46,971 nucleotides of DNA, taken from positions 1 to 46,971 of the forward strand of contig JALHNQ010000026.1 in assembly GCA_022843405.1 (NCBI GenBank). The letters are read 5' to 3'. This stretch comes from Methylocystis sp. Its GTDB lineage: Bacteria > Pseudomonadota > Alphaproteobacteria > Rhizobiales > Beijerinckiaceae. The notes under the pieces were generated by a model. That model did no database searches, was not told the origin of the DNA, and worked only from the letters and a program-made list of their open reading frames with translations. Position numbers and translations under genes: made by a program. Below, one piece after another: positions 20,375 to 44,169 of this stretch (within the stretch, counting starts at the first letter, position 1; each line of letters begins with the position of its first letter).

Positions 20375-20392
20375 GCCATCCGCCTTCCGTCG

Positions 20393-23746: not shown

Positions 23747-24301
23747 TCAGGTCGGGTTCATCAAGCGCGCCGGAACGCCCGCAATCACGCTTCCGGGCGC
23801 GAAGCTGCGGGTGACGACGGCCCCCGCGGCGATCACGCAGCCGTCGCCGAGCTCCACGTCCTTGAGGATGATCGCCTTTGCTCCGATCCAGCAGCGATCG
23901 CCGATCTTCACGCGTCCCTTGTTCATCGGCGCTTGGCTGGGCGTGACGCCGCGCCCGAATGTGTGATTGCTGTCGGTGATATAGACATCCGGACCGAACA
24001 TATTGTCGTCGCCGATCTCGATCGAGCCGCAGGCGTCGATCATGAGATTGCGATTAAAATAATTGCGGCTGCCGATGCGAAGGCGGACGCCATCGTCGTC
24101 GGTATCTTCCGGCCACAGCCAGCAGCCTTGCGTAAAGGCGTTGTCGTCGCCGATCTCGATCTGCGCGAGACGCCGGCAGCGGCCGCCGCCCTCCATGCGA
24201 TTGCGGCGGCCGAGGCGCATGCCGAGGGCGCGATAGAGGGCGAGCCGGAGTCGACTGGCCAGTCCGCGTGGAACGCGCAAGAGCATCGGCTCGACTCTCA
24301 T
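23747..24301 (-). CDS. left-handed beta-helix acyltransferase (WcaF/LbH type)
   Basis: 184 residues. Hexapeptide repeats ([LIV]-G-x4) run from about residue 50 to 175: AQIEIGDDNAFTQGCWL, SIEIGDDNMFGPDVYITDSNHTFGRGV, VKIGDRCWIGAKAIILKDVELGDGCVIAAGAVVTRSF, ending GVPARLMNP. The family transfers acetyl or similar groups from acyl-CoA to sugars as a trimer. ATG 24301 lies 5 bases after the preceding stop; the open frame continues upstream to 24538 but there it overlaps the GT2 gene and is not protein-like. It presumably O- or N-acetylates a polysaccharide residue or precursor. Confidence 0.87.
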   Translation of the reverse strand: MRVEPMLLRVPRGLASRLRLALYRALGMRLGRRNRMEGGGRCRRLAQIEIGDDNAFTQGCWLWPEDTDDDGVRLRIGSRNYFNRNLMIDACGSIEIGDDNMFGPDVYITDSNHTFGRGVTPSQAPMNKGRVKIGDRCWIGAKAIILKDVELGDGCVIAAGAVVTRSFAPGSVIAGVPARLMNPT

Positions 24302-24306
24302 GAGCG

Positions 24307-26192: not shown

Positions 26193-26289
26193 TTTGCGGG
26201 CGCTCGCGCCATCAGGCGATGCGATCGTCACCTCCACTTGCGCTCGACGGCGACGGCATAGTTGAAGCGTTCATGAAGCGCGCCGGATT

Positions 26290-27216: not shown

Positions 27217-27251
27217 TGCGTCAGTTGAAAACCAACGGGCGCTTTACGCTC

Positions 27252-28412: not shown

Positions 28413-28417
28413 AGCGC

Positions 28418-29290: not shown

Positions 29291-29325
29291 CACATGGTCT
29301 CTTCCAACAGCTCGCGTTGACCGAC

Positions 29326-30315: not shown

Positions 30316-30331
30316 TGTCTCTAGGACCAAA

Positions 30332-31183
30332 TCACCCCAGCAACATATTATAGTGGCGCCTCACCGAGCCGCCGATGACGCAAACGCCCATGCCCGAGAG
30401 CGTCACTGAAACCGCCACTGTCGGATCGCGCTGGATCGCTTTCCAAGCCCTGTTCATGCCTGGAGACCAGTTAATGTCATCGAAAACAAGGACTGATCGG
30501 TCCGCCAAGAATGAAATGGCTTGCCTGAAGTAGCTCAACGTCGCCGCTTCGTCGTGATGCCCGTCGATGAAGACGTAATCGAGCGGCTTCAGTCGCTGCA
30601 ATACAGCCGCTAATGTATTCTGGAAGGGCCCTATCTCGACCGAGGCGATGTCGGAAAGTCCCAGCGTGCTGAATGTTTCGGCCGCGATTTCAGCAAAGCT
30701 CGGCGCCCCTTCGAGGCTGACGAGGCGCCCCTGTCCATTGCATCGCATGGCGGCGGCTTGGTAGGCTGCCGACAGACCCATGCAAGCGCCGAGTTCGAGT
30801 CCCCTCATCGGCTTGCACGCTCTCACGACGTTGAAGAGCAGCAACGAGGAACGGCCGACTCGGCTATATTCGCGGCACGCATCCGCTACCCGAATGGCGC
30901 CGACGCTCGACGCGCCTGGCGGTCGCGGTCTGCTCTTTGGATCACCCGCGCCATAATCGATCTCTTCAACCAAATCGGTTCGCTCTAGAAGCGCCGTGCG
31001 CCTTGTTTCGATCCTGTCGATTGCGTCTTTTTCGAATTTGACAAGTTTTCCGGACAGCGTGCGCTCGAATGCGTCGGCGAGCGCAATCACCATCGGATCT
31101 CCCGATTTGCGCATTGCGGCGATGGTAAATGGATTGAGCGCGTGCTGCTTGACCAGCCGCGAAATTTTCGAAATGCCCAACAT
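30332..31183 (-). CDS. class I SAM-dependent methyltransferase (Methyltransf_24/CmcI-like)
   Basis: 283 residues. An N-terminal helical part of about 110 residues leads into MRGLELGACMGLSAAYQAAAMR (motif I), GRLVSLEGAPSFAEIA, and PLDYVFIDGHHDEAATLSYFRQAISFLADRSVLVFDDINWS. The DGHH and DDINW motifs are typical of the Methyltransf_24 group, which includes catechol- and sugar-O-methyltransferases with an active-site metal. Lower GC than the genes downstream, by eye. Substrate unknown; the cluster context suggests sugar O-methylation. Confidence 0.82.
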   Translation of the reverse strand: MLGISKISRLVKQHALNPFTIAAMRKSGDPMVIALADAFERTLSGKLVKFEKDAIDRIETRRTALLERTDLVEEIDYGAGDPKSRPRPPGASSVGAIRVADACREYSRVGRSSLLLFNVVRACKPMRGLELGACMGLSAAYQAAAMRCNGQGRLVSLEGAPSFAEIAAETFSTLGLSDIASVEIGPFQNTLAAVLQRLKPLDYVFIDGHHDEAATLSYFRQAISFLADRSVLVFDDINWSPGMNRAWKAIQRDPTVAVSVTLSGMGVCVIGGSVRRHYNMLLG

Positions 31184-31210
31184 CGAACGATCGAATCCCT
31201 GTGGGCAATC

Positions 31211-32395
31211 CTACCGACGTCCGGGTGCGCCAGAATATACCGGCTCAATGTCGGGAAAACTCGACAGAATCATCCGCGCGCCCCCTTGCAACGGGTGCTG
31301 CAGAGATTCGACGACCTCCGCGATATGCTGACCCAGATCCGCCGACAAACGGCACGCGCGCCCTTCGCGTCGCGCCGCCGCCATCTCCGAAGGCCCGCGC
31401 AGAAAATCGACGGCCTTGCGCCCCGCAAGCCAATGGGGAGGCGTGGCGACGTAAGGGTAAGTGCGCCAACCGGTCCACCCACTGTGCAGCAATGGCATGC
31501 CGAGCCAAAGCCGCAGCGCGTCGACACGCCGCTCGATGGCCGCGCCGAGACGACTGCGCTCATAGGTCTGATAGCGGACCGGACAGCGCTCGTGCCTGAC
31601 ATTGTGGACGTGGAGGATCCCCTTGTCGCCGATGATCGTTAGCGATTTGTCCTCCGGCGCCACGAGGCTACACGTCACGCGCGCCACGACGCCATCATCA
31701 TATTCGATGCAGCCAGCGGTGAAATCCGGGGCCATGCGCTCGACCGCGATGCCTTTATCGGGCAGCAGGCAGGCCGCGAACGAGGTGACCCGCCGCGCCG
31801 GGCCGAAGAATGCCGCCAGCCAAGTCAAAATGTAGCCGGCATGCTCATAGGTGCAGCCGACCTCGAATTCGTCCTTGGCCGGCCACGCGACGCCGGCCGC
31901 GTTGCGCCAATTCCACGGCGCCAGCCGCGGCGCGATCATGCCATCGTCGAAGCTGGCATAGATCAAACGAACCTTGCCGATCGCGCCGGCGCGCAGCGCC
32001 TGCCACACCGTCTGCGCCGTTTCGCTCAGTATGCTGCACGGCGCGCTCGCGAGCATCAGGCTACGAGCGCGCGCAATGTCGACCAGCGCGCCTGCCTCTT
32101 CCCCGGTCATGCCAAGCGGCTTTTCCGAGTAGACATGCTTGCCGGCCTCGAGTGCGGCGCGGGTGACGCTGGCGTGGCTGCGGGGATTGGTCAGGTTCAA
32201 CACCAGCTCTACCCTGTTATCCGCCAGAAGGTCGGCCTCGCTCGCATACCGCCTGCATCCCCAGCGCGTCGCGAACGCCTCGAGCTTTTGCGCATCCTGA
32301 TCCCAGGCTCCGACGAGCTGCAGCTCGCGGTGATACGGCAAAGCGCTCGCATATGATTCTGCAATGTAGCCGCAGCCGATGACGGCGAACTTCAT
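31211..32395 (-). CDS. Gfo/Idh/MocA-family NAD(P)-dependent oxidoreductase
   Basis: 394 residues. Rossmann start MKFAVIGCGYIAESYASAL, then VELVLNLTNPRSHASVTRAALEAGKHVYSEKPLGM with the catalytic EKP (91-93), and a C-terminal alpha/beta domain with EVGCTYEHAGYILTWLAAFFGP. Family members oxidise sugar or cyclitol hydroxyls to ketones. Directly preceded by, and overlapping (ATGA), the DegT aminotransferase gene, so the pair probably makes and aminates a keto-sugar or keto-cyclitol, as WbpB and WbpE do at C3 of UDP-GlcNAcA. It is not close enough by eye to call it WbpB. Confidence 0.88.
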   Translation of the reverse strand: MKFAVIGCGYIAESYASALPYHRELQLVGAWDQDAQKLEAFATRWGCRRYASEADLLADNRVELVLNLTNPRSHASVTRAALEAGKHVYSEKPLGMTGEEAGALVDIARARSLMLASAPCSILSETAQTVWQALRAGAIGKVRLIYASFDDGMIAPRLAPWNWRNAAGVAWPAKDEFEVGCTYEHAGYILTWLAAFFGPARRVTSFAACLLPDKGIAVERMAPDFTAGCIEYDDGVVARVTCSLVAPEDKSLTIIGDKGILHVHNVRHERCPVRYQTYERSRLGAAIERRVDALRLWLGMPLLHSGWTGWRTYPYVATPPHWLAGRKAVDFLRGPSEMAAARREGRACRLSADLGQHIAEVVESLQHPLQGGARMILSSFPDIEPVYSGAPGRR

Positions 32396-33720
32396 GCGCC
32401 GCCCGACACATAATACGCTGTGATCTTTGCGATCGCGGCCGCGATGTCCTGCATGTCGGCGTCGGTCCCGAGGAAAATCTCATGCGCGATATAGACGAGT
32501 TCGTCGATCGCCCGATCGGCGTTCGGCGTCGGCAGGACGCGAACATAGTCGGGCCGCGTCGCCGCCAACTTGCGCATGATCGGCTGACCGGCGATCGTCG
32601 CCGGGTAAAGCCGATGCACGGGGGCGCCTTCGGCGGCCAGCGCCGCGAGAAATATGTCCAGCGGCGCGCCGCGACAGCGCTCTGGGCGATAGCGCATCGC
32701 GAACATATACATGCCGTGCCGCCGCACGCCCGGATGACGACGCAGCGGCGCCAACGCCTGTTCCTCGCCGATCAGCCGTTCGAGCAGTTCGAACCGCTTG
32801 GCGCGCCGCGCCTGAAGCTCGTCGAACCGGCGAAGACGATGCAACAGCAGCGCCGCCTGATATTCGGTCGGACGCAGGTTCCAACCGAGCTCCGGATGTT
32901 CCCACCGGCTTCCGCCTTCCGGCGCGCGGCCGACATTGCAGATCGAACGCGCGCGCGCGATGACGGCGTCATTGCTCGTCGTCAGGACGCCGCCTTCGCC
33001 GCAGGCGAGGGTCTTGCTCGACTGGAAGCTGAAGCCGGCGGCGTCGCCGAGCGCCCCCGCCTTTCCTGTCTCCCACTCTGCGCCATGCGCCTGCGCCGCA
33101 TCCTCGACGATCTTGAGGCCGTGCCGGCGTGCGATCAACGTGAGCGCCGTCATGTCCGCGGGATGGCCGAACTGATGGACCGGCATGATCGCGCGCGTGC
33201 GGCCGGCGACGATCGCCGCCTCGACGGCGGCCGGATCGAGCATCATCGTGTCGGGATCAACGTCGACGAGCGCGACGCCGAAGCGGCGGTCGAGACAACT
33301 CGTCGCCGTCGCGATGAACGATAGGTTGGGAACGATCACTTCCCCGCCATACTCAAGACCGTCGTGATCGAAAATCGCGGCGAGGGCGACGCGCAGCGCG
33401 TCAGTCCCATGCGGCAAAAGCAGCGCGTGCCGGCAGCCGCAATAGGCCGCCCATTTGCGTTCGAATTCGCGCGCGAGCGGCTGTGGCAATCCCTCGGCGC
33501 CCGACAGGAAAATGCGCCGAAACGCCGGCCCGATAGCCGTGCGCCAGGCAAGCCACCTACCAGAACGCGGGTCGGCGTATGGCCGCAGCCGCGTATCGCG
33601 AACCGGCGCGCCCCCATGGATGGCGAGTTGGCCCGTTAGTCGTGATGCCGGCGCCGGCAACCAGCCAATGGTGTTGCGCGCCACGAGTCGGACTGCGGAT
33701 TTCAGCGCAACGCCGCTCAT
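32392..33720 (-). CDS. DegT/DnrJ/EryC1/StrS PLP aminotransferase
   Basis: 442 residues, longer than the usual 360-400. After about 30 extra N-terminal residues comes LAIHGGAPVRDTRLRPY. That start is more like the StsC (inosose) and AHBA-synthase subgroup than ordinary sugar aminotransferases. Conserved elements: HALLLPHGTDALRVAL, VIVPNLSFIATAT, VEDAAQAHGA (Asp207) and the PLP lysine in FSFQSSKTLACGEGG (Lys236). It would add an amino group from glutamate or glutamine to a keto-sugar or keto-cyclitol, probably the product of the overlapping downstream Gfo/Idh gene. Start ATG 33720 overlaps the AAC(3)-like stop. Confidence 0.9.
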   Translation of the reverse strand: MSGVALKSAVRLVARNTIGWLPAPASRLTGQLAIHGGAPVRDTRLRPYADPRSGRWLAWRTAIGPAFRRIFLSGAEGLPQPLAREFERKWAAYCGCRHALLLPHGTDALRVALAAIFDHDGLEYGGEVIVPNLSFIATATSCLDRRFGVALVDVDPDTMMLDPAAVEAAIVAGRTRAIMPVHQFGHPADMTALTLIARRHGLKIVEDAAQAHGAEWETGKAGALGDAAGFSFQSSKTLACGEGGVLTTSNDAVIARARSICNVGRAPEGGSRWEHPELGWNLRPTEYQAALLLHRLRRFDELQARRAKRFELLERLIGEEQALAPLRRHPGVRRHGMYMFAMRYRPERCRGAPLDIFLAALAAEGAPVHRLYPATIAGQPIMRKLAATRPDYVRVLPTPNADRAIDELVYIAHEIFLGTDADMQDIAAAIAKITAYYVSGGA

Positions 33721-34562
33721 GCAAGTTCAGTCTTGCACGAATCGCGAAGAAAGTCAGGACAGCGCTTCAGGCGGTTAAGCAGCAAGTCATGCACCTTTGC
33801 ACTGTCCGGCACGAACAGCAGAAAACCCATGCCCAGCGGTTCGCGTCGCACGAGACCAATCCGCTCGAGAAAGAGCCCCGCCTCGGCAAACCGCGTTGGC
33901 GATCGCCCCTGCCGGCGAGAGATACGCGCCCTTGTCCGCCCGCCTTCATCAAGAAAACGGAGGCTGTCACGTACCCCCATCTCAGCGGCGAACGGGCTTG
34001 CAGCGCTGAACTCCGCCGTATGGAAGAATGTGTAGGCATTGAATGTGACCCCGAGCATGAGCACCGAAGCCCTACTGTGGACCAAGCGTTCATAAGGCGT
34101 GCCCTCTCCACACGGCGAATCGTGGAGATAGTGTCCGGCGCACCAAGATCTCGCATCCCGTCCGGAAACGGCAAGTGAATGCGTTGAATGAATACTACGC
34201 TCGACCCCTGGCTGTCGCCAGAAACGCTCCGTAATAGCGCCCACTTTGGATGAAGTGTTCCGAGCGTCAAACAGCGGGGCGAGCACGTCTGGGGCGGGCG
34301 GGTAACAGTAGGAATGAGTCGGCATTGCCAACGTGTTGCAGGACTCAGCCAGAGCCGCAATCACATCATTTGCCCCGGCGACGTAACGGCCGCATGCCGA
34401 CAGCGAGCTATGCACGAGCAGAATGTCGGCGCCTCCCGCAGTCACTCTATCGAGCGCCAAGCGGAATTCCACTGGTTGGATCGGATTACGATAGCGTGAG
34501 AATATCATCTCAGCCCGCCGCGCAATGCGACGCATCCTGTGGCCAATCCGACCTTCCGTCAT
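33717..34562 (-). CDS. AAC(3)-like N-acetyltransferase (antibiotic_NAT family)
   Basis: 281 residues. Family features: ADILLVHSSLSACGRYVAGANDVIAAL near the N-terminus, LAMPTHSYCYPPAPDVL, VERSIHSTHSLAVSGRDARSWCAGH, and SPCGEGTPYERLVHSRASVLMLGV with the conserved His and Glu positions. Aminoglycoside 3-N-acetyltransferases define the family, but many members sit in sugar clusters and acetylate amino sugars. Here it sits between an aminotransferase and an amidotransferase, with ATGA overlaps on both sides, so acetylation of the newly made amino group is likely; an antibiotic-resistance role is not suggested. Start ATG 34562. Confidence 0.83.
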   Translation of the reverse strand: MTEGRIGHRMRRIARRAEMIFSRYRNPIQPVEFRLALDRVTAGGADILLVHSSLSACGRYVAGANDVIAALAESCNTLAMPTHSYCYPPAPDVLAPLFDARNTSSKVGAITERFWRQPGVERSIHSTHSLAVSGRDARSWCAGHYLHDSPCGEGTPYERLVHSRASVLMLGVTFNAYTFFHTAEFSAASPFAAEMGVRDSLRFLDEGGRTRARISRRQGRSPTRFAEAGLFLERIGLVRREPLGMGFLLFVPDSAKVHDLLLNRLKRCPDFLRDSCKTELA

Positions 34563-35761
34563 TCCTTAGCGATCTGCCCCCGCTGTTGGACGACCCTGCG
34601 CCGTATGCTGCCGATGGGGTCCAACAAGATTCGCGCAAACCTCGCGCCTTGCGCGTCGGTGCCATAGTCTTCGTGCCGCCGGGTAGGAAGTGACAAAATC
34701 TCGTCAAATTCGGCATCCGAAAAGCCGAGCTTCTTGGCGACGTAGATCTTCTCATACTCTTGGCGAGTTCGATCATCAGTCGGGCGCGCGAGCTCCGCCA
34801 ACGCCTCCTCGCGCGTAATCTCGTTGTTCAGAATTTGATTTGATAGATGCGCCTTACGCTTGTCGACGCCAAACCGACGCGGCAGGATGTAGCCCTGGTA
34901 GAACCGAGTGAACACCGACTCGTAGTGCTTGCCGCCATAATCACGCCAGCCGTACTCATCGATCAGGAGTTGCTTTGCCATGCTCTTTGAATACGGCACG
35001 AGGTCCAAAATGTTGATCGTTCGGATGCCCTCGACAATGTCGTAGTAGTACCGCTGCCAAACGCCGAGCTTGGGCAGCCGTTTCAACGGCGCATCGCCAA
35101 ATCTGCGATGAATCGCCGTGAGATTGACGAGATCGAACTTCGAGTAGACCCAGGCTCGCGGCATCACCCACTCAGTGGCGAAATTCGTGCCCGCGAGGAT
35201 GTGCTTAATGCCGTTCTGACTCGCGACCTTGTTCATTGCGCCAAAGATCATGTGATCGGTCGGGACTTCGAGGTCGATCACCGAGGCTCGAAAATACGCT
35301 CGCTGCAGATCCCGGAACTCAGGCCAGTGCATAACGAACGTTTGCAGCTGGAATCCGGTCTTCTTTAGTAACCTGTCGATGTTAAACACTGCCAATTCGT
35401 CGTTCCAACCGTTATCGAAATGCAATACTAGCGGCCGCAACGACCAAGTTTTTGCGAGATGCAAAACATACGAGCTGTCGACGCCGCCACTCACGCCGAT
35501 AAGGCAATCAAACGCCCGACCGGCGCCTACGGCCCGAATCTCCTCGAGCTTCGCCTTCAATGCGGCATCGCGCAGCTCTCCCTCAAGCCTTCGCGCTCTC
35601 TCTGCGTGGAAATCATGCCACCAGTTAGACACCCCCTGATCATCGAAGGTAATGTCTGGATCGGTCGTATCCATCACCGTCTTGGCGCACATGCGGAACT
35701 TGTCGGGAACTAAAAGCCCCTGCTCGGTCGCATCGTTTGAGATCAAGGGACTCGAGACCAA
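34559..35761 (-). CDS. N-acetyl-sugar amidotransferase (WbpG-like)
   Basis: 400 residues. ATP-PPase (PP-loop) enzyme that, with HisH- and HisF-like partners, turns an N-acetyl group into an acetamidino group. PP-loop SGGVDSSYVLHLAKTW (SGGVDS at 91-96) follows the N-terminal signature CAKTVMDTTDPDITFDDQG. As I recall the family, the N-terminus reads CxxCVMDT...GVCNxC; here only the first Cys (25) remains, the others being Thr28, Ser45 and Trp47-48. A metal site is therefore probably lost. The start is TTG 35761: GGAGG lies 8 bases upstream, and the gene overlaps the end of hisF by 19 bases. A TTG at 35746 would overlap the hisF stop as TTGA but lacks such a site. Confidence 0.9.
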   Translation of the reverse strand: MVSSPLISNDATEQGLLVPDKFRMCAKTVMDTTDPDITFDDQGVSNWWHDFHAERARRLEGELRDAALKAKLEEIRAVGAGRAFDCLIGVSGGVDSSYVLHLAKTWSLRPLVLHFDNGWNDELAVFNIDRLLKKTGFQLQTFVMHWPEFRDLQRAYFRASVIDLEVPTDHMIFGAMNKVASQNGIKHILAGTNFATEWVMPRAWVYSKFDLVNLTAIHRRFGDAPLKRLPKLGVWQRYYYDIVEGIRTINILDLVPYSKSMAKQLLIDEYGWRDYGGKHYESVFTRFYQGYILPRRFGVDKRKAHLSNQILNNEITREEALAELARPTDDRTRQEYEKIYVAKKLGFSDAEFDEILSLPTRRHEDYGTDAQGARFARILLDPIGSIRRRVVQQRGQIAKE

Positions 35762-36516
35762 AAACTCGCCTCCAATTCTTGCTCAGTCGGATAGTTTATA
35801 AGCACGCCTTCTTTCTTCCCGGCAAAGACGAAAATGCTACTTGCCGCCACAGCGCTGCACTTTCCATCCCTCACGGCCGCTATAAAATCATCAATTCCCC
35901 TCGCGCCGCCGTTGGCAATTACGGGCACATCGACGGCCTCGGCAACTGAACGCAGGAGCTCAATATCGTAACCTTGAAATGTGCCCTCCCGTTCTATGGC
36001 GGTGACCAGGAGCTCGCCCGCGCCCATACGCGCACAGGCGACGGCGTGTTCTGCCGGCGTTGCATTGATCGCTAAACGTCCGTTCCTGAAAAGGACTTGA
36101 TTGCGACGCAGCAGTTTACTGCCGACATCGATCGAGGCGACTACGGCCTGAGAGCCGAAGCGCTCGGCCAGCCGCGTGATCAAGCTAATATCTGTTGCCA
36201 GGGCCGAGTTGATAACGACCTTCTCAACGCCGCAACGGAATAAACCCGCGCATGCCTCTACGCTGCTTATCCCACCGCCGTATGCGATTGGCATGAAAGC
36301 CTCGCTCACGATTTCTTCAACGCGCTGATAATTGATGCGATTGGCGGTTGTTGCCTCAATGTCCAGCAGCACTAACTCATCGACTTGCTTGTCGTTGAAT
36401 ATCTTCACGACGTTAATCGGATCGCCAAGATAGCGTGGCCTGCGAAAACGCTGCGTCTTGACCAAACCATCGTTAGTGAGAAGCAGAATTGGGATCACAC
36501 GCACGCGACGAGTCAT
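35743..36516 (-). CDS. hisF2: HisF-like amidotransferase cyclase subunit (HisF2 type)
   Basis: 257 residues, TIM barrel. Starts MTRRVRVIPILLLTNDGLVKTQRF and keeps DELVLLDIEAT, YGGGISS, SIDVGSK (Asp130), AGELLVTAIEREGTFQGYD and VIANGGARG. True HisF has catalytic Asp11 in CLDVKDG; here that position is Leu13, as in the surface-sugar HisF2 group, so this copy should not make imidazole. It is thought to channel ammonia from the HisH-like glutaminase to the WbpG-like enzyme. ATG 36516 directly abuts the hisH stop. Lower GC than the flanking core. Confidence 0.92.
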   Translation of the reverse strand: MTRRVRVIPILLLTNDGLVKTQRFRRPRYLGDPINVVKIFNDKQVDELVLLDIEATTANRINYQRVEEIVSEAFMPIAYGGGISSVEACAGLFRCGVEKVVINSALATDISLITRLAERFGSQAVVASIDVGSKLLRRNQVLFRNGRLAINATPAEHAVACARMGAGELLVTAIEREGTFQGYDIELLRSVAEAVDVPVIANGGARGIDDFIAAVRDGKCSAVAASSIFVFAGKKEGVLINYPTEQELEASFWSRVP

Positions 36517-37137
36517 TCATTCGGTCGCCATGCGCGCAAAATTCATGAGCACCGTGCTCCCGAAAACATGACTCTTTTCCGGATGAAACTGAACGCCCAT
36601 GACGTTGCCAGTTGCTACAGCCGATACGAATTCATATCCATGAACTGCGGTTGCGACTGCAATCTTCGGATCAGCGCATATGAAGTGGTATGAGTGAACA
36701 TAATAGAACCGCGCGGGGATCTGCAAACCTGCAAACAGCGGATGTGGCGCACACTTCGTCTCTAACCAGCCCATGAGCGGCACCTTGTCCAAGCTCGTCA
36801 AGCGAGCGCGATCGAAGGGAACCGTCTCTATGTCGATCCAGCCAAGTCCTTTCGTATCGCCTTCTTCGCTGTGGCGCCCCAACATCTGCGCACCGAGGCA
36901 GATACCGAGAATCGGCCGCCGTTTACCAATCACTAAGTCGTCAAGCAGGTCCAAGAGACCGCTGTCCCGCAGTTGCTCCATGCCGTAACGGAAGTGACCA
37001 ACTCCGGGAAGTATCAGCTTCGACGCCTTGGCGACTACGTCCCTATTGGACGAAACCACGGCTTTGAAGCCAGCACGCCGAAGCACGTTCTCGATCGAGC
37101 GCAAGTTACCGAGCCCATAATCGATGATGGCGATCAT
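36517..37137 (-). CDS. hisH2: HisH-like class I glutamine amidotransferase
   Basis: 206 residues, normal HisH length. It hydrolyses glutamine to supply ammonia. Catalytic triad visible: Cys80 in GICLGAQML, His185 and Glu187 in GVQFHPEKS. N-terminal MIAIIDYGLGNLRSIENVLRRAG is typical. Its neighbours are the HisF-like (adjacent) and WbpG-like genes, the known trio for acetamidino sugars in Pseudomonas aeruginosa and Legionella surface glycans; no other his genes are nearby. Start ATG 37137 overlaps the GT4 stop as ATGA. Confidence 0.93.
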   Translation of the reverse strand: MIAIIDYGLGNLRSIENVLRRAGFKAVVSSNRDVVAKASKLILPGVGHFRYGMEQLRDSGLLDLLDDLVIGKRRPILGICLGAQMLGRHSEEGDTKGLGWIDIETVPFDRARLTSLDKVPLMGWLETKCAPHPLFAGLQIPARFYYVHSYHFICADPKIAVATAVHGYEFVSAVATGNVMGVQFHPEKSHVFGSTVLMNFARMATE

Positions 37138-38363
37138 GCGCGCGTCTTCGATAATTCCAGCAGGATTTGTGCGAGCCTGTTGGCATTTAAATCGCGGTCA
37201 TGGTCTCGTCGAATTTTGGCCCGGCAATTCTTGCGCAACAGCTCAATTTCGTCCGGCCTCAAGTCGGCAAACGTCTCCAATGCGGCTGTGAGATCAGTTG
37301 CGGCAAAATTTGCTGGCAGCAGCATGCCGGTACTGGCGTCGACGAGTTCACTCGACCCCCCCACATCTGTCGCTATTACAGGAATTCCAGCGCACATAGC
37401 TTCCATGATGGAGACCGGCAGCCCTTCGGTCGCGCTGACGTTAACAAATACATCTATTGGAAGCCTCTCGTAGAGCTGTAGAATCGCTTCGTTCGACATT
37501 CGACCGAGCAGACGTGCAGAAACATTTGTGGGGAGCAATGCTGTCGCGGCCTTCAACTCATCGAACAGCGGACCATCCCCAATGTGCGTCCATTCGACTC
37601 TTCGCGTAGTCGAGCGCAATGCCTCGGCGATAAGGTTCGTGCGCTTTTCAGATCTGACGAAGCCACAGCTGACAACGCGCAAAACACCATCGTCACTCCG
37701 TTTGCACTGGCCTCGCACTTCGGTGCCAAGCGCGGCCACTCTGATCTTGCCAGCATGGCGCGGATAGCACGTTCGCAAATATGCGGCTCCGTGCGCAGAC
37801 ACGGCTAGGACACTGCCGGCATGCTCAATAATCGCTTTCTGATGCGGTAAAAAGCCGCTTGCCCGCTGATGATAAAGGTCAAAGCCGTGAAACCGAACCG
37901 CCGACGATCGAGCAACGCTCATTGGCAGGAAAGGTAGAATGCGGGCGTAATCCGTTCCCCAAAAAAAATACAAAACCGCTTCTTTCATCGCCGGCAGAAG
38001 CTGATCTCGAAAGAAGGCGGTGCGGAGCGCTCGTTCAACGCCCACTGACGAGATTAGCCACTTCTTTGCATTTTCTATGCTCGGCTGACACCGTTCGATT
38101 GCCAGTCCTCGGAGATGCCTGTGGAACCGAGGCCCGAGGAGCGATAGAACCTCATGCCTTCTGATCGGCCCCGCGTACATCCTTGACAATGGCGGCAGCA
38201 CATTGACGTTGGTCGGCAATTCCACGCCAATTGGCTCCAGCTCGACAAACGGAGCAATCGTAATATTATCAAAATGTTGTGCAAGAATTCGCAGTTCATT
38301 AAGCTTCCAGGGTTCCGTCGACGAATACGGAAAGGCATTCGTAAAGAACAAGAGACGTTTCAG
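37134..38363 (-). CDS. glycosyltransferase family 4, probable CTG start
   Basis: 409 residues, GT-B fold. Read from CTG 38363 the protein starts MKRLLFFTNAFPYSSTEPW. The donor domain has LRVVSCGFVRSEKRTNLIAEAL and VFVNVSATEGLPVSIMEAMCAGIPVIATDVGGSSELV. Start choice: an in-frame TAA at 38367-38369 excludes anything upstream. CTG 38363 overlaps the FkbM stop as CTGA and has GGGAAG seven bases upstream. The next candidate, TTG 38351, lacks a spaced site and would cut off a conserved-looking MKRLL. AT-rich by local standards: 26 of 60 bases are G/C at 38221-38280. The donor sugar is unknown. Confidence 0.85.
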   Translation of the reverse strand: MKRLLFFTNAFPYSSTEPWKLNELRILAQHFDNITIAPFVELEPIGVELPTNVNVLPPLSRMYAGPIRRHEVLSLLGPRFHRHLRGLAIERCQPSIENAKKWLISSVGVERALRTAFFRDQLLPAMKEAVLYFFWGTDYARILPFLPMSVARSSAVRFHGFDLYHQRASGFLPHQKAIIEHAGSVLAVSAHGAAYLRTCYPRHAGKIRVAALGTEVRGQCKRSDDGVLRVVSCGFVRSEKRTNLIAEALRSTTRRVEWTHIGDGPLFDELKAATALLPTNVSARLLGRMSNEAILQLYERLPIDVFVNVSATEGLPVSIMEAMCAGIPVIATDVGGSSELVDASTGMLLPANFAATDLTAALETFADLRPDEIELLRKNCRAKIRRDHDRDLNANRLAQILLELSKTRA

Positions 38364-39214
38364 AGTTTAGCTTCCCGGCCAAGGCGCGATCCGAAAACAT
38401 GATCCCGCACATAGTCCCGCTCGTCGTCCACTCGCCTCCAGACAGTGAAACCATGATCTCGTAAGAAAGACTCGACAAAATTGCGCGTGCGATAACTTTC
38501 TCCGTGCCCGCGTTCGGCGCGAAAATCATGCGCGCAGATGCAGACTTCTGACACCATGTCTATCGCTTTGAGCATGCCAAGCAAAGCGTGCTGCTCGGCC
38601 CCTTCTATGTTCATCTTCAGGAAGTCTATGCGCGTAATCGAATGGCGTGCGCAAAGCTCATCAAGAGTCGTCGCCATGATCGAGGTAGTGCCGCAACCAA
38701 TGGTGTTGCCTTCCCAAGCCTGATCATCACCAATTTTAACCAATCCCGACTGATCCATCAGCGCCGTATGGATTGGCGTCACATTGGTCAGGCCGTTAAG
38801 ACGACAGAGGCGTGAAAGACGATCAAATGATGAGGAATTTGCCTCTATCGCATAAATTCGACCCATTGGGCCAACCGCCGTCGAGAAAGGCAATATATCC
38901 TCTCCACGCCCCGCACCCACGTCGACAATAACGTCACCTAGACGCGGTCGATAGCTCCGGTACCAAAGGTCCTCAACGTCGGCAAAATAAGTGTCAATCT
39001 CGCTTGGCCAATTCCGAAACGTTGACTCATAATAGTCGAAACGATTTCCATCCGGAATACGATACAGTCCAACCCGATGAAACCAGCCTTGATCGAAGCC
39101 TATCTCCACATCGCTTCCGGCTATCTGTCTGGCTTTAGCCGTACCTAGAGCTTTCAGCATATGTCGACCGCCCGGCCCGTCTAACATAGAAAGCACGCGC
39201 CGCTTGAGCGTCAT
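38360..39214 (-). CDS. FkbM-family methyltransferase
   Basis: 284 residues. SAM motif I is GDVIVDVGAGRGEDILPFSTAVGPMGRIYAIEAN. The FkbM signature is ITRIDFLKMNIEGAEQHALLGM, preceded by TTLDELC. ATG 39214 overlaps the wzt stop as ATGA, so it is translationally coupled to the exporter ATPase. Chain-terminal methylation is the export tag in several ABC-type O-antigens (for example O8/O9), and the C-terminal domain of Wzt reads it. The coupling makes this enzyme a candidate chain terminator, an inference only. A longer frame to 39322 is rejected because it lies inside wzt. Confidence 0.87.
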   Translation of the reverse strand: MTLKRRVLSMLDGPGGRHMLKALGTAKARQIAGSDVEIGFDQGWFHRVGLYRIPDGNRFDYYESTFRNWPSEIDTYFADVEDLWYRSYRPRLGDVIVDVGAGRGEDILPFSTAVGPMGRIYAIEANSSSFDRLSRLCRLNGLTNVTPIHTALMDQSGLVKIGDDQAWEGNTIGCGTTSIMATTLDELCARHSITRIDFLKMNIEGAEQHALLGMLKAIDMVSEVCICAHDFRAERGHGESYRTRNFVESFLRDHGFTVWRRVDDERDYVRDHVFGSRLGREAKL

Positions 39215-40449
39215 AGTGAATCCGTGAATTCGTAGCTGCAAGACGGATATATCGAGCCAACTTTCCTCTGCTCCAATTGGTACCGGGAGTCGATCATGGC
39301 GGAAACTTCCAACGCTAAGCACTGCGGATCTGAAAAGTATGTGTGATGATGATCTCCCATCTGAATCGATATCAAATAACTTCCATCCAAAAGCGGCGGC
39401 CCGTTGACTACAATGCGCGCGTGACCGCCATTCCGCGTAGTCGACCTTTGCGGGCGTTCTTCAAGCATTGAGTTGTGCCCAAATAGCGGTCGCCCATCCC
39501 AGCCATGAATGATGAAACCGACGCCTGGGAAACAAACATCTGATGGAAGGGCGGAGTATTCGAGCTCGATAACAATTCTGCTCTCGGATTGGCGCGCAAC
39601 GATCGAACGTACCAAGGACCCTTCCGGATAAGACTTCGAATTCGCAGCCGCTCTTGCACGGTTATACTCTGAAATCACGGTATGCGTTTCGCCAAACGCA
39701 TCGATGTTCCCAGACGCTAGGAGGATGCACCTTGGGCACAAGAACCGCATAGCCGCCATGTCATGACTGACAAACAGCACAGTACGACCCTGCCCCGACA
39801 CATCCTGCATCTTGCCGAGGCATTTCTTCTGAAATTCGGCGTCGCCAACCGACAGCACCTCGTCGACGACCAATATCTCCGGCTCCAGATGCGCGGCGAC
39901 CGCGAAGGCCAGCCGAACATACATACCGGACGAATAGCGTTTGACCGGCGTGTCTAGAAACTTCTCGACCTCGGCGAAGGCGACGATTTCGTCGAACTTC
40001 CTGCGGATTTCCGCGCGCGTCATGCCGAGGATCGCGCCGTTGAGAAAAATATTCTCGCGCCCGGTGAGTTCCGGATGAAAGCCGGTGCCGACTTCGAGCA
40101 GGCTCGCGAGACGTCCCCTGATCTCGACCCTGCCCCGCGTCGGCTCGGTAATGCGCGAGAGCACCTTTAGCAGCGTCGACTTGCCGGCGCCGTTGCGTCC
40201 GATGACGCCGACCACCTCGCCACGTTTGACCTCGAAGTTCACATCTCTTAGCGCCCAGAACTCCTCGACCGAACTGTCGCCGGAAACGCTCGCGCCGCGC
40301 GCCGGATCGCGAATCCTGCCCATCGCTCTGCGCGCCGCGCCCGCGAGAACGTCGCGCAGGGCGACGTATCTTTCATTGCCGCCGGCCGCGTGGCTGATCA
40401 TATAGGCCTTGCCGAGGCCGTCGGCCCGGATGACGACGTCTCCGCTCAA
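39211..40449 (-). CDS. wzt: O-antigen/polysaccharide ABC exporter ATP-binding protein
   Basis: 412 residues. ATPase domain: Walker A GRNGAGKST (84-92), signature YSSGM (172-176), Walker B ILVVDE (192-197), switch His229 in FVSHDM. An extra region of about 150 residues after residue 260 corresponds to the Wzt C-terminal carbohydrate-binding domain (beta-sandwich; SRIVIELEYSALPSD, GVGFIIHGWDG, LLDGSYLISIQMGDHHH). The start is TTG 40449 with AGGAG seven bases upstream. The ATPase half is GC-rich; the C-terminal half (about 39211-39660) has visibly lower GC, pointing to a domain swap. It works with Wzm to move a finished chain across the inner membrane. Confidence 0.95.
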   Translation of the reverse strand: MSGDVVIRADGLGKAYMISHAAGGNERYVALRDVLAGAARRAMGRIRDPARGASVSGDSSVEEFWALRDVNFEVKRGEVVGVIGRNGAGKSTLLKVLSRITEPTRGRVEIRGRLASLLEVGTGFHPELTGRENIFLNGAILGMTRAEIRRKFDEIVAFAEVEKFLDTPVKRYSSGMYVRLAFAVAAHLEPEILVVDEVLSVGDAEFQKKCLGKMQDVSGQGRTVLFVSHDMAAMRFLCPRCILLASGNIDAFGETHTVISEYNRARAAANSKSYPEGSLVRSIVARQSESRIVIELEYSALPSDVCFPGVGFIIHGWDGRPLFGHNSMLEERPQRSTTRNGGHARIVVNGPPLLDGSYLISIQMGDHHHTYFSDPQCLALEVSAMIDSRYQLEQRKVGSIYPSCSYEFTDSL

Positions 40450-40467
40450 GCCGCCGCTCCTACGCGC

Positions 40468-41385
40468 TCAGATGACATCCGCGAAGGACCGCTCGAACTT
40501 GCGGAAATAAGCGACGCCAAGCCAGGCGAGCGCGGCGGCGACGGCGCAGCTTCCGACGAATCCCGGCATATAGAGCTGGCTCTCGCCGCCGAGCAGGCAC
40601 CAGCGAAAGCCGTCGATGACCCCGACAACTGGATTGAGGCTATAGAAGAACCGCCAGCCGTCAGGCACCACGCTGCTGGAAAAGCCGACCGGCGAAACAT
40701 AGAGCCCGAATTGCAGCAAGAAGGGCAGGATGAAGCGAAAGTCTCGGTATTTGACGTTGAGCGCGGCGATGAGCAGCGCGGGCCCGAAGCTCGCAACAAC
40801 CGCGAAGGCGATGAACGCCGGAAGCAGCGCGATCCTCCAGCCCGGCAAGAAGCCATAGAACGCCATCAGGGCGAGCAGGACGACAAGATTGATCGCCAGG
40901 TCGACGAGCGCCACAACCGCCGTCGAGGCCGGGAGGATGATCCGGGGGAAATAGATTTTTCCGATCAAATTGGCGTTGCCGATCATGCTGCTTGAAGCGT
41001 CGCCCAATATGCTCGAGAAGAGGAACCACGCCAGCATTCCCGACAGCACCAGGATCGGATAGGGCGTCGCGCCTTCGCTCGGGAGCTTCGCGAGCCTGCC
41101 GAAGATGATGGTGAAAATGACCATTGTCGTCAGCGGGCGGATGACCGCCCAGGCGACGCCGATCATGGTCTGCTTGTAGCGCACCGAAACGTCGCGCCAC
41201 GCGAGGATCAGAAACAGCTCGCGATAATTCCACAGATCGCGCCAATAATTGCTCTCGGCGCGTCCGGCCTCAAGCACCACCACGCGTTCGCCAGTCATCG
41301 TCGCGGCAGGCGCGCGCTCGACATGCGTCTGCATGACGTCGCCTGCCGGGCTTGCGCCGCCATGCTCGGTTTGCGGCATCGTCAC
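40468..41385 (-). CDS. wzm: O-antigen/polysaccharide ABC exporter permease
   Basis: 305 residues. A polar N-terminal extension of about 45 residues precedes the ABC-2 permease domain. YRELFLILAWRDVSVRYKQTMIGVAWAVIRPLTTMVIFTIIFGRL is the gate-helix region and first membrane segment, with about five more helices to LAWLGVAYFRKFERSFADVI. FRFILPFLLQFGLYVSPVGFSSS is the usual conserved stretch. The start is GTG 41385, overlapping the asnB-like stop as GTGA, or ATG 41379. Eighteen bases separate it from wzt. Together they form the channel for the undecaprenyl-linked chain. Confidence 0.94.
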   Translation of the reverse strand: MTMPQTEHGGASPAGDVMQTHVERAPAATMTGERVVVLEAGRAESNYWRDLWNYRELFLILAWRDVSVRYKQTMIGVAWAVIRPLTTMVIFTIIFGRLAKLPSEGATPYPILVLSGMLAWFLFSSILGDASSSMIGNANLIGKIYFPRIILPASTAVVALVDLAINLVVLLALMAFYGFLPGWRIALLPAFIAFAVVASFGPALLIAALNVKYRDFRFILPFLLQFGLYVSPVGFSSSVVPDGWRFFYSLNPVVGVIDGFRWCLLGGESQLYMPGFVGSCAVAAALAWLGVAYFRKFERSFADVI

Positions 41386-43241
41386 GCTATGGCGTCCGCC
41401 AGAACCCGTTGCGCCCAGATACGCGAGTCGATTCCCTTGCGGGAACGATCGCCGCCCGACGCAGATCGCGATTGTCCCTTGCTGTCGGCGGCCATCCAGG
41501 CATGCGTTGGCGCGACGAAGCCGGTCTTTGACCGTCGGACCACCGCGTCCGGAAGCGGGCGCCGTGGCGCCTGCGCAAGAAGCGATTTTGGCGCGATGCT
41601 CTGTGGGGGTTCGCCAAGCGCGACGATCCGTTCGAGCAAGGTCGCGTCAACCAACGGAACGCGAACCTCCAAACCATGCGCCATGCTGGCCCAATCCGTA
41701 TCGCGGAGAAGCTGATTGCGCATATAGAGCGACGACTCAAGCGTCGCGACCGTGGCGAACGGCGTCGCCGGACATGGCGTCATCGCTTCCTGCACACGCT
41801 CGAGCGTTTGCAATGTCGCAAGGCCCTCGCGCAGCATGTCGCCGTCGATCAGGCGATCAAGCTCCCAAGGCATGAAGAGCCCGCGACGCAGCATATAGGC
41901 GCCGGCGAAACTCCCCCCCAACTCAAGGAGTCCAGCGGCTTTCGGGCTCGGCAGCCGATGGTCGAGCCCGCTGGCGACCAGCAAGCGTCGAACGATCGCT
42001 CCAAGTTTCGCAAGGCGCGCGGGCGCGCTAAGACGCGCCACCCATCGCGGAATGTCCCGGAACGAGGGATAGCCGCCGAACAGTTCGTCGCCGCCAAGGC
42101 CAGAAACGACAACTTTGAGGTCAAGCTCTCGCGCGGCCTTCGATGCAAACCATGTGTTGACGCCGTCGATCGAAGGCTGGTCCATTGCGGCGAGGATTTT
42201 AGGCAGATCGGTTCGCAACTCTTGTTCGGCGACAACCCGCGTCGCATGCGCCGCGCCATAGGTCCGAGCCACTTCGGTGGCGAGCGGCGCTTCGTCTTCC
42301 GCACTGCCCCGAAACGCATCGAATGCGATCGTGACGGTCTTGATTTCAGCCTGGCCGGCGTCTCGCATCAAGCCGACAAGCGCGCCTGAGTCGATTCCCG
42401 CCGACAGGAACGCCCCTACAGGAACATCGGCCACCAGGTGGCGCCGGACGGCGTCAAGCAGCGCGTCTCGCGTCTTTTGCGCCAGCTCTTCGCCAATCGC
42501 ATATTGACGAACGCCTGGCCCCCGCATGCGAGCCTGCGCATCGCAATAGACCTGTCCGATCGAATGATATCGGGCCGGCGCGCCAACGCCGGTTTGATTG
42601 ACGACAAGACAACATCCGGCAGGCAACATGCGAATGGCGCGGTATGTGGTGAAGGGCTCCGGCACGCTGCCCCACAGCAAGAAACCGACCTGACCCGCAG
42701 GATCGGGATCTCGCGCGACCGCGCCGCCGGCGATGAGCGCCTTGACCTGCGAAGCGAAACGGAAGGTTTTGTGATCGTCGGCGTAATAAACTGGCTTGAC
42801 GCCATAGGGATCGCGCGCCAGCAAGAGTTCGCGCTTGGCCTCGTCCCAGATCGCGAAGGCGAACATTCCCTGCAGCGCATGGACCATGTCGGGGCCGCGA
42901 TCGGCATAGAGGTGCAGAAGCGCTTCGGTGTCGGAACGCGAACGAAAGACATAGCCTTTCGCTTCGAGTTCGGATCGCAAATCGCGGTAGTTGTAGATTT
43001 CGCCGTTGAACGTCACCGCGAGCCGACCGTCGATCGTGCGCATCGGCTGCGCCCCGTTCTCGGATAGATCGATGATCGCCAGGCGACGGTGCCCCAGGCC
43101 AACACGTTGATCATCGCTGATCCAGAAACCTGCGCCGTCCGGCCCCCTTGCTGTCATGTGGTCGCGCGTCGCCAACAGCTCCCGACGGTCGACCGGGTTG
43201 GCGAGGCCTTGGTAAGCAAAGACTCCGTTAATGCCGCACAT
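41382..43241 (-). CDS. asparagine-synthetase-B-like glutamine-dependent amidotransferase
   Basis: 619 residues. Met is followed by nucleophile Cys2 (MCGINGVFAYQG). The glutaminase domain has HRRLAIIDLSENGAQPM and AVTFNGEIYNYRDLR. The synthetase domain has the PP-loop SAGIDSGAL near 280 and VVSGLGGDELFGGYPSF. In polysaccharide clusters such proteins often amidate uronic acids (WbpS of P. aeruginosa is a known example) rather than make asparagine. ATG 43241 is fixed by the required N-terminal Cys; the frame upstream to 43394 is leader. It is the first gene of the 34-kb run and follows the ops-bearing leader. Confidence 0.93.
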   Translation of the reverse strand: MCGINGVFAYQGLANPVDRRELLATRDHMTARGPDGAGFWISDDQRVGLGHRRLAIIDLSENGAQPMRTIDGRLAVTFNGEIYNYRDLRSELEAKGYVFRSRSDTEALLHLYADRGPDMVHALQGMFAFAIWDEAKRELLLARDPYGVKPVYYADDHKTFRFASQVKALIAGGAVARDPDPAGQVGFLLWGSVPEPFTTYRAIRMLPAGCCLVVNQTGVGAPARYHSIGQVYCDAQARMRGPGVRQYAIGEELAQKTRDALLDAVRRHLVADVPVGAFLSAGIDSGALVGLMRDAGQAEIKTVTIAFDAFRGSAEDEAPLATEVARTYGAAHATRVVAEQELRTDLPKILAAMDQPSIDGVNTWFASKAARELDLKVVVSGLGGDELFGGYPSFRDIPRWVARLSAPARLAKLGAIVRRLLVASGLDHRLPSPKAAGLLELGGSFAGAYMLRRGLFMPWELDRLIDGDMLREGLATLQTLERVQEAMTPCPATPFATVATLESSLYMRNQLLRDTDWASMAHGLEVRVPLVDATLLERIVALGEPPQSIAPKSLLAQAPRRPLPDAVVRRSKTGFVAPTHAWMAADSKGQSRSASGGDRSRKGIDSRIWAQRVLADAIA

Positions 43242-43332
43242 CAGCCGGTTCGCATGGAAAGCAATGACTTGGCATTGATCCTGACACTTGCGAGATCGCC
43301 TCTTATCGCGTCGGCGTTTTCGCGAATTGGTC

Positions 43333-43357
43333 CGAAGGGCCGGTCGAACCGGCTTCG
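43333..43357 (-). other. bulged hairpin downstream of ops
   Basis: CGAAG (43333-43337) and CCGGT (43340-43344) pair with ACCGG (43348-43352) and CTTCG (43353-43357), a 5+5 bp stem with a 2-base bulge and a 3-base loop. It would form in the transcript 35-60 bases after ops. No run of T follows, so it is more likely a pause or RNA structure than an intrinsic terminator. Confidence 0.4.
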
Positions 43358-43391
43358 ACGCCATCAGCTGCAGGCGGCAGAGCATTCGCTC

Positions 43392-43403
43392 CACGCTACC
43401 GCC
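43392..43403 (-). promoter_or_regulatory. ops element (RfaH recruitment motif), perfect match
   Basis: Read on the minus strand this is GGCGGTAGCGTG, identical in all 12 positions to the enterobacterial ops/JUMPstart core. There, ops on the non-template strand makes RNA polymerase pause and recruits RfaH. The strand and place are those required: transcribed leader of a very long polysaccharide operon, 189 bases downstream of the stop codon of a NusG/RfaH-like gene. The upstream half of the 39-base JUMPstart is not recognisable here. Confidence 0.75.
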
Positions 43404-43446
43404 GTTCGGGTGAAGAGGGTCTCCTCACTCGTTGTCGCCGACTATT

Positions 43447-43472
43447 GGCGTCGCGCCACGCTGCGCGACGCC
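43447..43472 (-). other. perfect 10-bp stem-loop in the leader, with alternative pairing
   Basis: GGCGTCGCGC (43447-43456) pairs with GCGCGACGCC (43463-43472) around a 6-base loop. The second arm can instead pair as CGACGCCG (43466-43473) with CGGCGTCG (43502-43509), enclosing a small AGCCG/CGGCT hairpin (43484-43497). The two forms cannot coexist. Such an arrangement is typical of attenuators, but no U-tract follows. Confidence 0.5.
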
Positions 43473-43599
43473 GATCATTTGCAAGCCGCTAACGGCTCAT
43501 GCGGCGTCGAATGATTCAACCGCGACGCCGCCGGGTTCCTGCTACCGTTGTTCGCGTTTGACGCTCACAACGCCCGACGCCTTCGCCATTTCTTTCGCG

Positions 43600-44169
43600 T
43601 CAGGCCGCCTCCAACGCAAGGCGATCCAGATGCGCGGGCACTTTACCGTTCATGATGTCCAACAACACGCGTACCCGCCCATTGGCGTCCAATCGCTCCA
43701 ACACGCCAATTGCATTTGCAAAAGCGCCGGCGACGACTCGCACCGTTTGACCTTCACGCAAATTGCGATCGAGCCGGACCATGCCTTCCTCGTCGAGAAG
43801 ATCGAGCAGATTTTCGACGACGCCGACAGGAACCGGCTGGGGCGTATCGCCTTGCATGATCAAGCTCGCGACGCCGCCGGTGCCGTTGACCGACCGCCAG
43901 CGATCGCGTTCGACGTCGAGCACGACGAACATATAGGTGGGAAAGACGGCGCCCTTCACCATGCGCAGCTTTCGCGCATGCCGGACGGTTTTTGTCGCGC
44001 GCGGGAAAAAAACGGGAAAGCCCTGCCGAAGAAGTTGAAACTCGGCTCGCGCTTCCTGTCGCGGCAAGGAGCGGACGACGTACCACCGCTCTCCCTTCTC
44101 AAGGGGACTTCGAACATCCCACTTTCTCGGAAGCATTGTCTCTGATCGCTCAATGCGCTCCAAATACAC
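43600..44169 (-). CDS. specialised NusG paralog (RfaH/UpxY/LoaP-like antiterminator)
   Basis: 189 residues. The NusG N-terminal domain runs about 27-120: ERWYVVRSLPRQEARAEFQLLRQGFPVFFPRATKT, MVKGAVFPTYMFVVLDVERDRWRSVNGTGGVASLI. A KOW domain lies about 135-185 (REGQTVRVVAGAFANAIGVLERL). It binds RNA polymerase to suppress pausing and termination. Location beside a large surface-glycan cluster, not beside secE/rplK, marks it as a specialised paralog. GTG 44169 has GGGAGG five bases upstream; ATG 44136 is the alternative. Regulation: an ops-like motif lies about 90 bases upstream and a perfect ops lies downstream, before the operon it presumably controls. Confidence 0.92.
   Translation of the reverse strand: MYLERIERSETMLPRKWDVRSPLEKGERWYVVRSLPRQEARAEFQLLRQGFPVFFPRATKTVRHARKLRMVKGAVFPTYMFVVLDVERDRWRSVNGTGGVASLIMQGDTPQPVPVGVVENLLDLLDEEGMVRLDRNLREGQTVRVVAGAFANAIGVLERLDANGRVRVLLDIMNGKVPAHLDRLALEAA

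Follow-up and report, generated by a model that had tools for sequence, protein, structure and literature searches.

An ops-type element behind a predicted RNA hairpin accompanies RfaH-like NusG paralogs and polysaccharide operons in Alphaproteobacteria

The window analyzed here, a 46,971-nucleotide stretch of Methylocystis DNA, encodes an RfaH-like NusG paralog followed, on the same strand, by a leader that carries an exact ops motif just behind a predicted hairpin and that leads into a long polysaccharide operon. The first-pass annotation had proposed that an ops-type element is tied to such a paralog at a long polysaccharide operon outside the gammaproteobacteria, and this association is kept in relatives; the module is not peculiar to the window locus and recurs across the class. 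Together, the paralog and the element probably constitute a cis-encoded alphaproteobacterial antiterminator and its recruitment site, an ops pause behind an RNA hairpin. The module extends far beyond the window and most probably works like RfaH/ops. The label Alphaproteobacteria for the family, order and class sets used below rests on the nearest named relatives found for the paralog protein, an alphaproteobacterial MAG (96% identical) and Methylocystis sp. ND2_Bin_18 (89%).

The paralog gene (43600..44169, minus strand; an ATG at 44136 is a possible alternative start) encodes NGN and KOW domains and has RfaH TIGR01955 as its best NCBIfam model. A leader of 358 bases (43242..43599, minus strand) separates its stop codon from a putative target operon (9329..43241, minus strand), which is defined by ORF count and Pfam matches. 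As the first-pass annotation had it, thirty-one same-strand genes cover 34 kb: 31 ORFs span 33,914 bases from 43242 to 9329, with a largest gap of 84 bases and with some overlaps that arise from taking each start as the longest possible. An ATG at 43241 is usable as the start of the first gene, which is of the asparagine-synthase family. The remaining Pfam matches include an ABC-2/Wzt-type ABC transporter, glycosyltransferases, methyltransferases, nucleotide-sugar enzymes and a carbamoyltransferase, and the overall profile is that of a polysaccharide locus; the transporter consists of an ABC-2 membrane protein and an ABC ATPase, whose Wzt_C match lies slightly below the Pfam cut-off. The operon ends at 9329, facing a plus-strand gene at 8281-9318. 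It also contains His_biosynth (HisF-like) and class I glutamine-amidotransferase genes (35743-37137, minus strand), which, with the asparagine-synthase-like first gene (41382-43241, minus strand), may point to amidated or acetamidino sugars. Two of its ORFs, 17037-18455 (472 aa) and 34559-35761 (400 aa), both on the minus strand, had no Pfam match at E 0.001. A promoter scan of 43200-44700 found no sigma-70-like promoter, and the scanned region held one terminator-like site versus 2.3 expected by chance. A terminator-like stem with a T run at 44498-44484 (minus strand), between an O-antigen-ligase-like gene and the paralog, would part the module from the upstream gene, though chance sites are expected. 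A search of the same genome with the RfaH model returned one further NusG-type gene (C80), which is taken as the housekeeping NusG on the basis of 53% identity to E. coli NusG over the aligned stretch.

The ops 12-mer GGCGGTAGCGTG occupies 43392..43403 on the minus strand, so that the exact 12/12 match noted in the first-pass annotation, in the 358-base leader, on the right strand and behind the NusG paralog, is present as described. In the established ops numbering, in which pausing occurs at U11 (PMC6391919; PMC5995543; PMC11001881), G2 to C9 form the GCGGTAGC core, T11 at 43393 is the expected pause position, and G12 lies at 43392. The low chance probability that had been claimed for the motif holds for its position, since the sense strand of the leader is expected to contain only 0.00005 copies, but not genome-wide. 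Base composition predicts 0.016 copies in the window and ~1.1 in a genome of this size and composition; GGCGGTAGCGTG at this site is the sole exact copy in both the window and the 3.34-Mb genome, where the reversed-pattern control also occurs once. The 12-mer alone is only moderately unusual, and its position is the remarkable part; what decides the matter is its conservation. The genome-wide expectation is what would favor a chance match, an explanation that is so improbable as to be negligible, being ruled out by the conservation behind paralogs, the unprimed 8-mer count and the paralog co-occurrence described below. Allowing two mismatches, a dinucleotide shuffle gave 6 ops-like sites found versus 7.2 expected, which is not significant and says nothing on the exact copy. 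One such site, CGGGGTAGCGTG (44259-44270, minus strand), lies upstream of the paralog gene itself; a similar sequence, CGAGGTAGCGTG, is its counterpart in the 96% relative, while no site with up to two mismatches is found there in the 89% relative. This site was considered as a second, autoregulatory one and rejected, since the 89% relative lacks it and the regions upstream of paralogs show no pattern of this kind; it is probably a chance match or a relic.

Comparison with relatives revealed that ops is part of a longer conserved unit. The conserved element in the window, CACCCGAACGGCGGTAGCGTG (43392..43412, minus strand), has the 12-base ops as its 3′ end, and the unit in relatives usually consists of a base-paired hairpin followed by TCACCC-N4-(G/T)GCGGTAGC. 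The earlier view of the 12-mer as the signal was thus right as to the presence of ops, but the unit that is conserved is a composite, usually hairpin plus CACCC-N4-ops. Paralogs were collected from a family search of 397 genomes, from which every listed match at or above 42% identity (46 in all) was taken along with 15 more distant matches, together with the best 28 of 81 listed matches as order loci and the best 29 of 94 as class loci. An element defined by the regular expression CACCC, 4-5 bases, GCGG[T/C]AGC was present on the same strand within 300 nt downstream of the stop codon in 64 of 103 paralog genes across the class (31/46 close family paralogs, 21/28 order loci and 12/29 class loci), and 39/103 had none in this range. 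The distance from stop to GCGG was 48-217 nt, with a median of 71.5. The reverse strand of the same downstream intervals yielded 0/103 (101 intervals of full length), and four other same-strand intervals (98-100 of full length) yielded 1, 0, 0 and 1 matches. The first-pass annotation had staked its reading on conservation of the motif in relatives with the NusG paralog, and the reading survived this comparison. The 15 distant family paralogs (L082-L096), which were set apart from the 103, had no element (0/15). In genus g32, a variant block GGTGATTTTCACCCGGAGTGCGTTAGCTTT (one copy GGAATGCG), with GTTAGC for GGTAGC, lies 0.3-9.8 kb downstream and on the same strand of four of these distant paralogs (L090, L091, L095, with two copies, and L096), and may belong to a second class of paralogs that has an element variant of its own, or else be a dispersed repeat. 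A different arrangement was seen at locus L048 (genome G171), where two tandem hairpin-plus-ops copies, both with C for T6, lie 70 bases apart behind one paralog.

The same motif emerged when none was supplied. The commonest 8-mer was GCGGTAGC, present in 61 of 97 non-redundant leaders, and unprimed Gibbs sampling over the 97 leaders produced TTCACCCGGACGGCGGTAGCGTGG, with frequencies of 0.90 for G2, 0.92 for C3, 0.93 for G4, 0.81 for G5, 0.69 for T6, 0.74 for A7, 0.86 for G8, 0.89 for C9, 0.79 for T11 and 0.66 for G12. In a core-anchored alignment of 63 non-redundant leaders, TCACCC and an A three bases before the core carried 1.4-1.9 bits and T11/G12 1.5/1.1 bits, against a flank mean of 0.07 and a flank maximum of 0.36. 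Among class-wide elements, G or T occupies ops position 1, and position 10 is free.

A predicted RNA hairpin lies directly upstream of ops in the window (43407..43431, minus strand, with outer pairs to 43431/43407). Its stem, GTGAGGAG/CTCTTCAC (43428-43410), consists of 8 bp, including one G-U, and closes a loop of ACC. A simple search identified a stem of at least 6 pairs before the element in 40/46 sites; the 3′ arm of the hairpin reaches into CACCC and stops a few bases short of ops. In the family set (41 sites), the 3′ part of each site folded with its own 5′ arm at -13.1 kcal/mol, compared with -9.4 for the arms of other sites and -7.6 for shuffled arms (p 1e-8). The corresponding values for 31 order/class sites were -12.7, -9.2 and -8.0, with the own arm folding better in 26/31 (p 1e-5). 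At ~4/41 family sites and 5/31 order/class sites the own arm was no better than the arms of other sites, and a minority of sites have a weak stem or none. RNAalifold on a MAFFT alignment found only 2 pairs, located in the ops core, and no hairpin, presumably because differing loop lengths shift the arms. A hand-written 11-pair stem, aligned for 28 of the 46 sites that were hand-chosen and biased to clear stems, had 71% of cells paired and 27 both-side changes versus 8.6 ± 2.9 in shuffled alignments; the number of pairs with a both-side change was not unusual, as 88/500 shuffles reach it. The hairpin claim rests on the own-arm folding tests because these include every non-redundant site of the respective set. 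When the RNA ends at T11, the base of the stem is ~14-17 nt back, which we take, from polymerase geometry, to be near the mouth of the RNA polymerase exit channel. The Rfam JUMPstart model (RF01707) had no match in the window at the gathering score, and matches up to E = 5 in 43200-44400 included no JUMPstart; the one match, lsy-6, was far below the gathering score.

The presence of the element in a genome follows that of the paralog. With at most one mismatch, a 21-base pattern was found in 39/41 family genomes with a close paralog versus 2/39 without (Fisher p 1e-17), and exact matches in 33/41 versus 0/39 (3e-15); these p values, like the one below, ignore kinship, the patterns were derived from the family’s own leaders, which makes the positive half of the family comparison partly circular and leaves the negative half unaffected, and the 39 paralog-free genomes were hand-picked. 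The reversed 21-base pattern gave 3 matches in the 80 family genomes. Six of the 39 positive genomes have the pattern only with one mismatch, among them G346, whose sole match (L137) is likely due to chance and which is still counted in 39/41. In the order outside the family, an 18-base pattern was present in 26/40 paralog genomes versus 0/40 others (6e-11), and its exact form was absent altogether from 14/40 genomes with a paralog; the comparison drew on 40 of the 75 order genomes outside the family that had a match, plus 40 that had none, both in listing order, ‘without paralog’ meaning no match at E 1e-22. The reversed 18-base control gave 9 matches in 8 of the 80 order genomes. The plain 12-mer KGCGGTAGCRTG occurred in 58/80 family genomes (37/41 with paralog, 21/39 without) and separates the groups much less, which indicates that the flanking letters matter. 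Two incomplete genomes with the paralog (G327 and G337) were left out of the family pattern and 12-mer counts.

Several copies of the element lie away from a paralog gene. In genome G322 the element is 1.1 Mb from the paralog on the same contig, and G128 has three copies: one precedes a paralog by 6.8 kb on the same strand, another stands in front of a different operon, and the third follows a second paralog. The description of the module as self-contained therefore applies to the window but is not a rule, since several relatives have their element at a large distance from the paralog or on its upstream side. The first of the G128 copies (locus L128, contig C1) suggests that the regulator may sit inside its own target operon, with the potential for feedback. 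Fourteen of 19 retrieved away regions were examined, and polysaccharide genes were among the first three ORFs scanned in 11/14; the types encountered were UDP-glucose/GDP-mannose dehydrogenase, Poly_export/Wzz, glycosyltransferases, acyltransferase and UDP-GlcNAc 2-epimerase. Two of the 14 regions lacked polysaccharide genes (L135 and L141) and one reached a contig edge (L138). The other five (L137, L139, L142, L144 and L145), one-mismatch sites that are likely due to chance, were excluded, along with all two-mismatch sites, from this count and from the hairpin tests (46/41 sites). For cis copies of the order and class sets, the downstream ORF, defined as the longest in the rest of the 1.5-kb flank and scanned for 30 of 33, had a sugar or polysaccharide Pfam match in 24/30, broad families among these being GFO_IDH_MocA oxidoreductases (n=4) and FkbM methyltransferases (n=2); five had no such match and one matched a transposase.

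These distributions bear on two alternatives. It is very improbable that the conserved block is where an unrelated regulator binds, or a piece of a promoter, and accompanies such operons by coincidence: a promoter between paralog and element is possible, but the ops match, the strand bias, the arm fit, the co-occurrence with one protein family and the occurrence of the element before diverse operons away from the paralog all argue against it. The element might instead be a strong pause only, for example for ribosome or NusG coupling, with the paralog delivered in cis and not reading it, in the manner of monomorphic RfaH homologs. Such a role would be compatible with the fit of ops to the general consensus pause (PMC7819879) and with RfaH homologs that lack some ops-binding residues and are reported to be active in E. 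coli without ops, like an E48A mutant (PMC13015549); E48 is found in 0/64 alphaproteobacterial carriers of the element. We nevertheless consider it quite unlikely, since in the unprimed sampling G5 and T6 (0.81 and 0.69), which mediate recruitment of RfaH by the ops hairpin (PMC11001881), show conservation comparable to that of T11 and G12 (0.79 and 0.66), copies far from the paralog need a recognized site, and the element is found in none of the 40 order genomes and 2/39 family genomes that lack the paralog.

The protein resembles RfaH in part. The window paralog scored 101.2 bits against RfaH TIGR01955 (cut-off 144.5), 63 against UpxY (cut-off 100), 58 against NusG and 43.4 against LoaP (cut-off 125). 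In a tree of 151 leaves rooted on two NusGs, a quick FastTree rather than a thorough phylogenetic analysis, E. coli RfaH and 30 comparison loci, called gammaproteobacterial from high RfaH scores and tree position, formed one clade (0.84), while the alphaproteobacterial proteins, including the distant ones, formed another (0.86). Within the latter, the 64 element carriers share a single sub-clade of 100 leaves (0.77) with 36 alphaproteobacterial proteins that lack a cis copy. F56 is found in 64/64 carriers, and the Rho-contact Phe of NusG is lost in 64/64, position 146 being M or L in all of them and F in both NusGs compared. The residues with known roles in autoinhibition (PMC7593976, which also treats F56 and the Rho loop) are poorly kept: E48 in no carrier versus 28/30 gammaproteobacterial RfaH proteins, I93 in 13/64 (V in 49) and F130 in 12/64, with G, V and L, respectively, in the window paralog. 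Similarly, among the residues that read ops in RfaH (PMC5995543), K10 is present in 1/64 carriers versus 27/30 gammaproteobacterial proteins (the other 3 have R) and R73 in 6/64 versus 30/30; H20 (21/64) and R23 (29/64) are variable in gammaproteobacterial RfaH too. The window paralog has L, Q, R and G at K10, H20, R23 and R73. Of these four residues, none is kept in 23 carriers, one in 27, two in 12 and three in 2, compared with four in 9, three in 14, two in 5 and one in 2 of the 30 gammaproteobacterial proteins. Other positions are kept in all or most carriers, namely Q24 and T72 (both 64/64), N70 (54/64) and R67 (62/64, versus 4/30 in gammaproteobacterial RfaH). An AlphaFold2 model of the window paralog from a 3-row alignment had a mean pLDDT of 42. 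The RfaH-type protein of the first-pass annotation is accordingly RfaH-like in keeping F56 and in having lost the Rho-contact Phe, but judged by its sequence it is not RfaH proper by the criteria tested, namely the model cut-off, its separate clade, and the absence of E48 and most base-reading residues.

Since the ops-reading side chains are mostly lost, binding of ops by the alphaproteobacterial paralog does not follow from homology. The absence of E48 and, mostly, of K10 and R73 suggests that recruitment probably occurs via other side chains and that release from autoinhibition may be unneeded. The loss of these residues, together with an arm-matched hairpin before the core in most sites, would also suit recognition of RNA in the manner of LoaP, which itself binds a leader RNA hairpin (PMC12691694): the paralog would bind the nascent hairpin and flanking RNA instead of non-template DNA, and the conserved letters would be read as RNA. 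This alternative is unlikely, because the stem does not contain the most conserved letters, which are those of the ops core plus T11/G12, a minority of sites have no good stem, the LoaP model gives 43 bits versus a cut-off of 125, the window loop is ACC and not the UNCG of LoaP, and T72 and Q24, which are part of the RfaH ops surface, are present in every carrier.

Under the preferred interpretation of a cis-encoded antiterminator and its ops pause, pausing, binding, Rho exclusion, and antitermination or ribosome coupling are inferred from homology to RfaH. As the leader is transcribed by RNA polymerase, the enzyme would pause at ops with the RNA end at T11 (43393), and the nascent hairpin would fold near the mouth of the exit channel. 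The GCGGTAGC core would then be displayed in the non-template strand, and the NGN domain of the paralog would bind the paused complex at the displayed core. The bound paralog would shut out housekeeping NusG, and hence Rho, and would remain bound through the 34-kb polysaccharide operon. A further proposal, offered tentatively and with somewhat less than balanced confidence, is that the alphaproteobacterial proteins are a sister branch of RfaH that reads the same ops core through another protein code, in which conserved R67, N70, T72 and Q24 replace K10 and R73, with a signal composed of hairpin and non-template DNA and with no E48-type autoinhibition.

Target recognition by NusG paralogs other than RfaH was called unknown in two papers (PMC6391919, 2019; PMC7593976, 2020). 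Since then, the LoaP RNA hairpin has been reported, and a 2026 preprint proposes ops-free cis loading for non-autoinhibited RfaH homologs. A conserved ops-plus-hairpin element that co-occurs with the paralog across the class provides a defined candidate site for such proteins and links many polysaccharide operons to one regulator. It also presents a puzzle: the ops core has been retained, whereas the residues with which E. coli RfaH reads it have not. This combination of the same DNA core with different amino acids allows the sequence of steps by which RfaH evolved to be tested. If the sister-branch proposal were true, site-specific loading would predate autoinhibition and the R73 code or have arisen independently of them, in conflict with the published scheme of a joint and late origin of ops contacts and autoinhibition. 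Among open-licence PMC papers, mainly their titles and abstract openings, no description was found of an alphaproteobacterial ops element or of a CACCC-hairpin-ops composite.

Several known systems share features with this module. JUMPstart RNA (RF01707), which is listed for gammaproteobacteria and has a reported stem-loop (PMC2864571), likewise places a stem-loop beside ops in polysaccharide leaders; its conserved letters differ from those of the alphaproteobacterial element, and it has no Rfam match in the window. LoaP and its dfn RNA hairpin offer another pairing of a specialized NusG paralog with a conserved leader hairpin, but the window paralog is below the LoaP cut-off, the element is mostly ops core and the window loop differs from UNCG. 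UpxY, TaA and other operon-encoded NusG paralogs resemble the present case in having the regulator gene at or in the target operon; their recruitment is called unknown in PMC7593976, which gives E. coli RfaH as the only member whose detailed recruitment mode is known. The monomorphic cis-acting RfaH homologs, proposed to be free of autoinhibition and loaded in cis without ops (PMC13015549, preprint 2026), are similar in lacking some ops-reading residues and in lying beside long envelope operons. Compared by description, they differ from the alphaproteobacterial paralogs, which are accompanied by a conserved ops-type element that is sometimes far off.

A further parallel is RfaH/ops of E. coli and other gammaproteobacteria. 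In both systems ops is found in the leaders of long polysaccharide operons, and in E. coli the rfb leader, too, has a hairpin immediately before ops, as in most alphaproteobacterial sites. The 12 bases of ops in the window are identical, and the alphaproteobacterial paralogs, including that of the window, keep F56 and lack the Rho-contact Phe. According to PMC7593976, 18% of rfaH genes are alphaproteobacterial and several RfaH clusters adjoin envelope genes, and recruitment of recent paralogs in cis has been proposed (PMC6391919). The contiguous arrangement of regulator and element, which the first-pass annotation had contrasted with the usual action of RfaH in trans, is also found in 5/30 gammaproteobacterial RfaH loci (L222, L229, L231, L235 and L236), where exact GGCGGTAGCGTG lies 63-493 bases downstream on the same strand and the encoded proteins keep R73 in 5/5 and E48 in 4/5. 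The alphaproteobacterial system differs from gammaproteobacterial RfaH/ops in the CACCC-N4 sequence that stands in front of ops and in a regulator that is often encoded directly upstream of the element.
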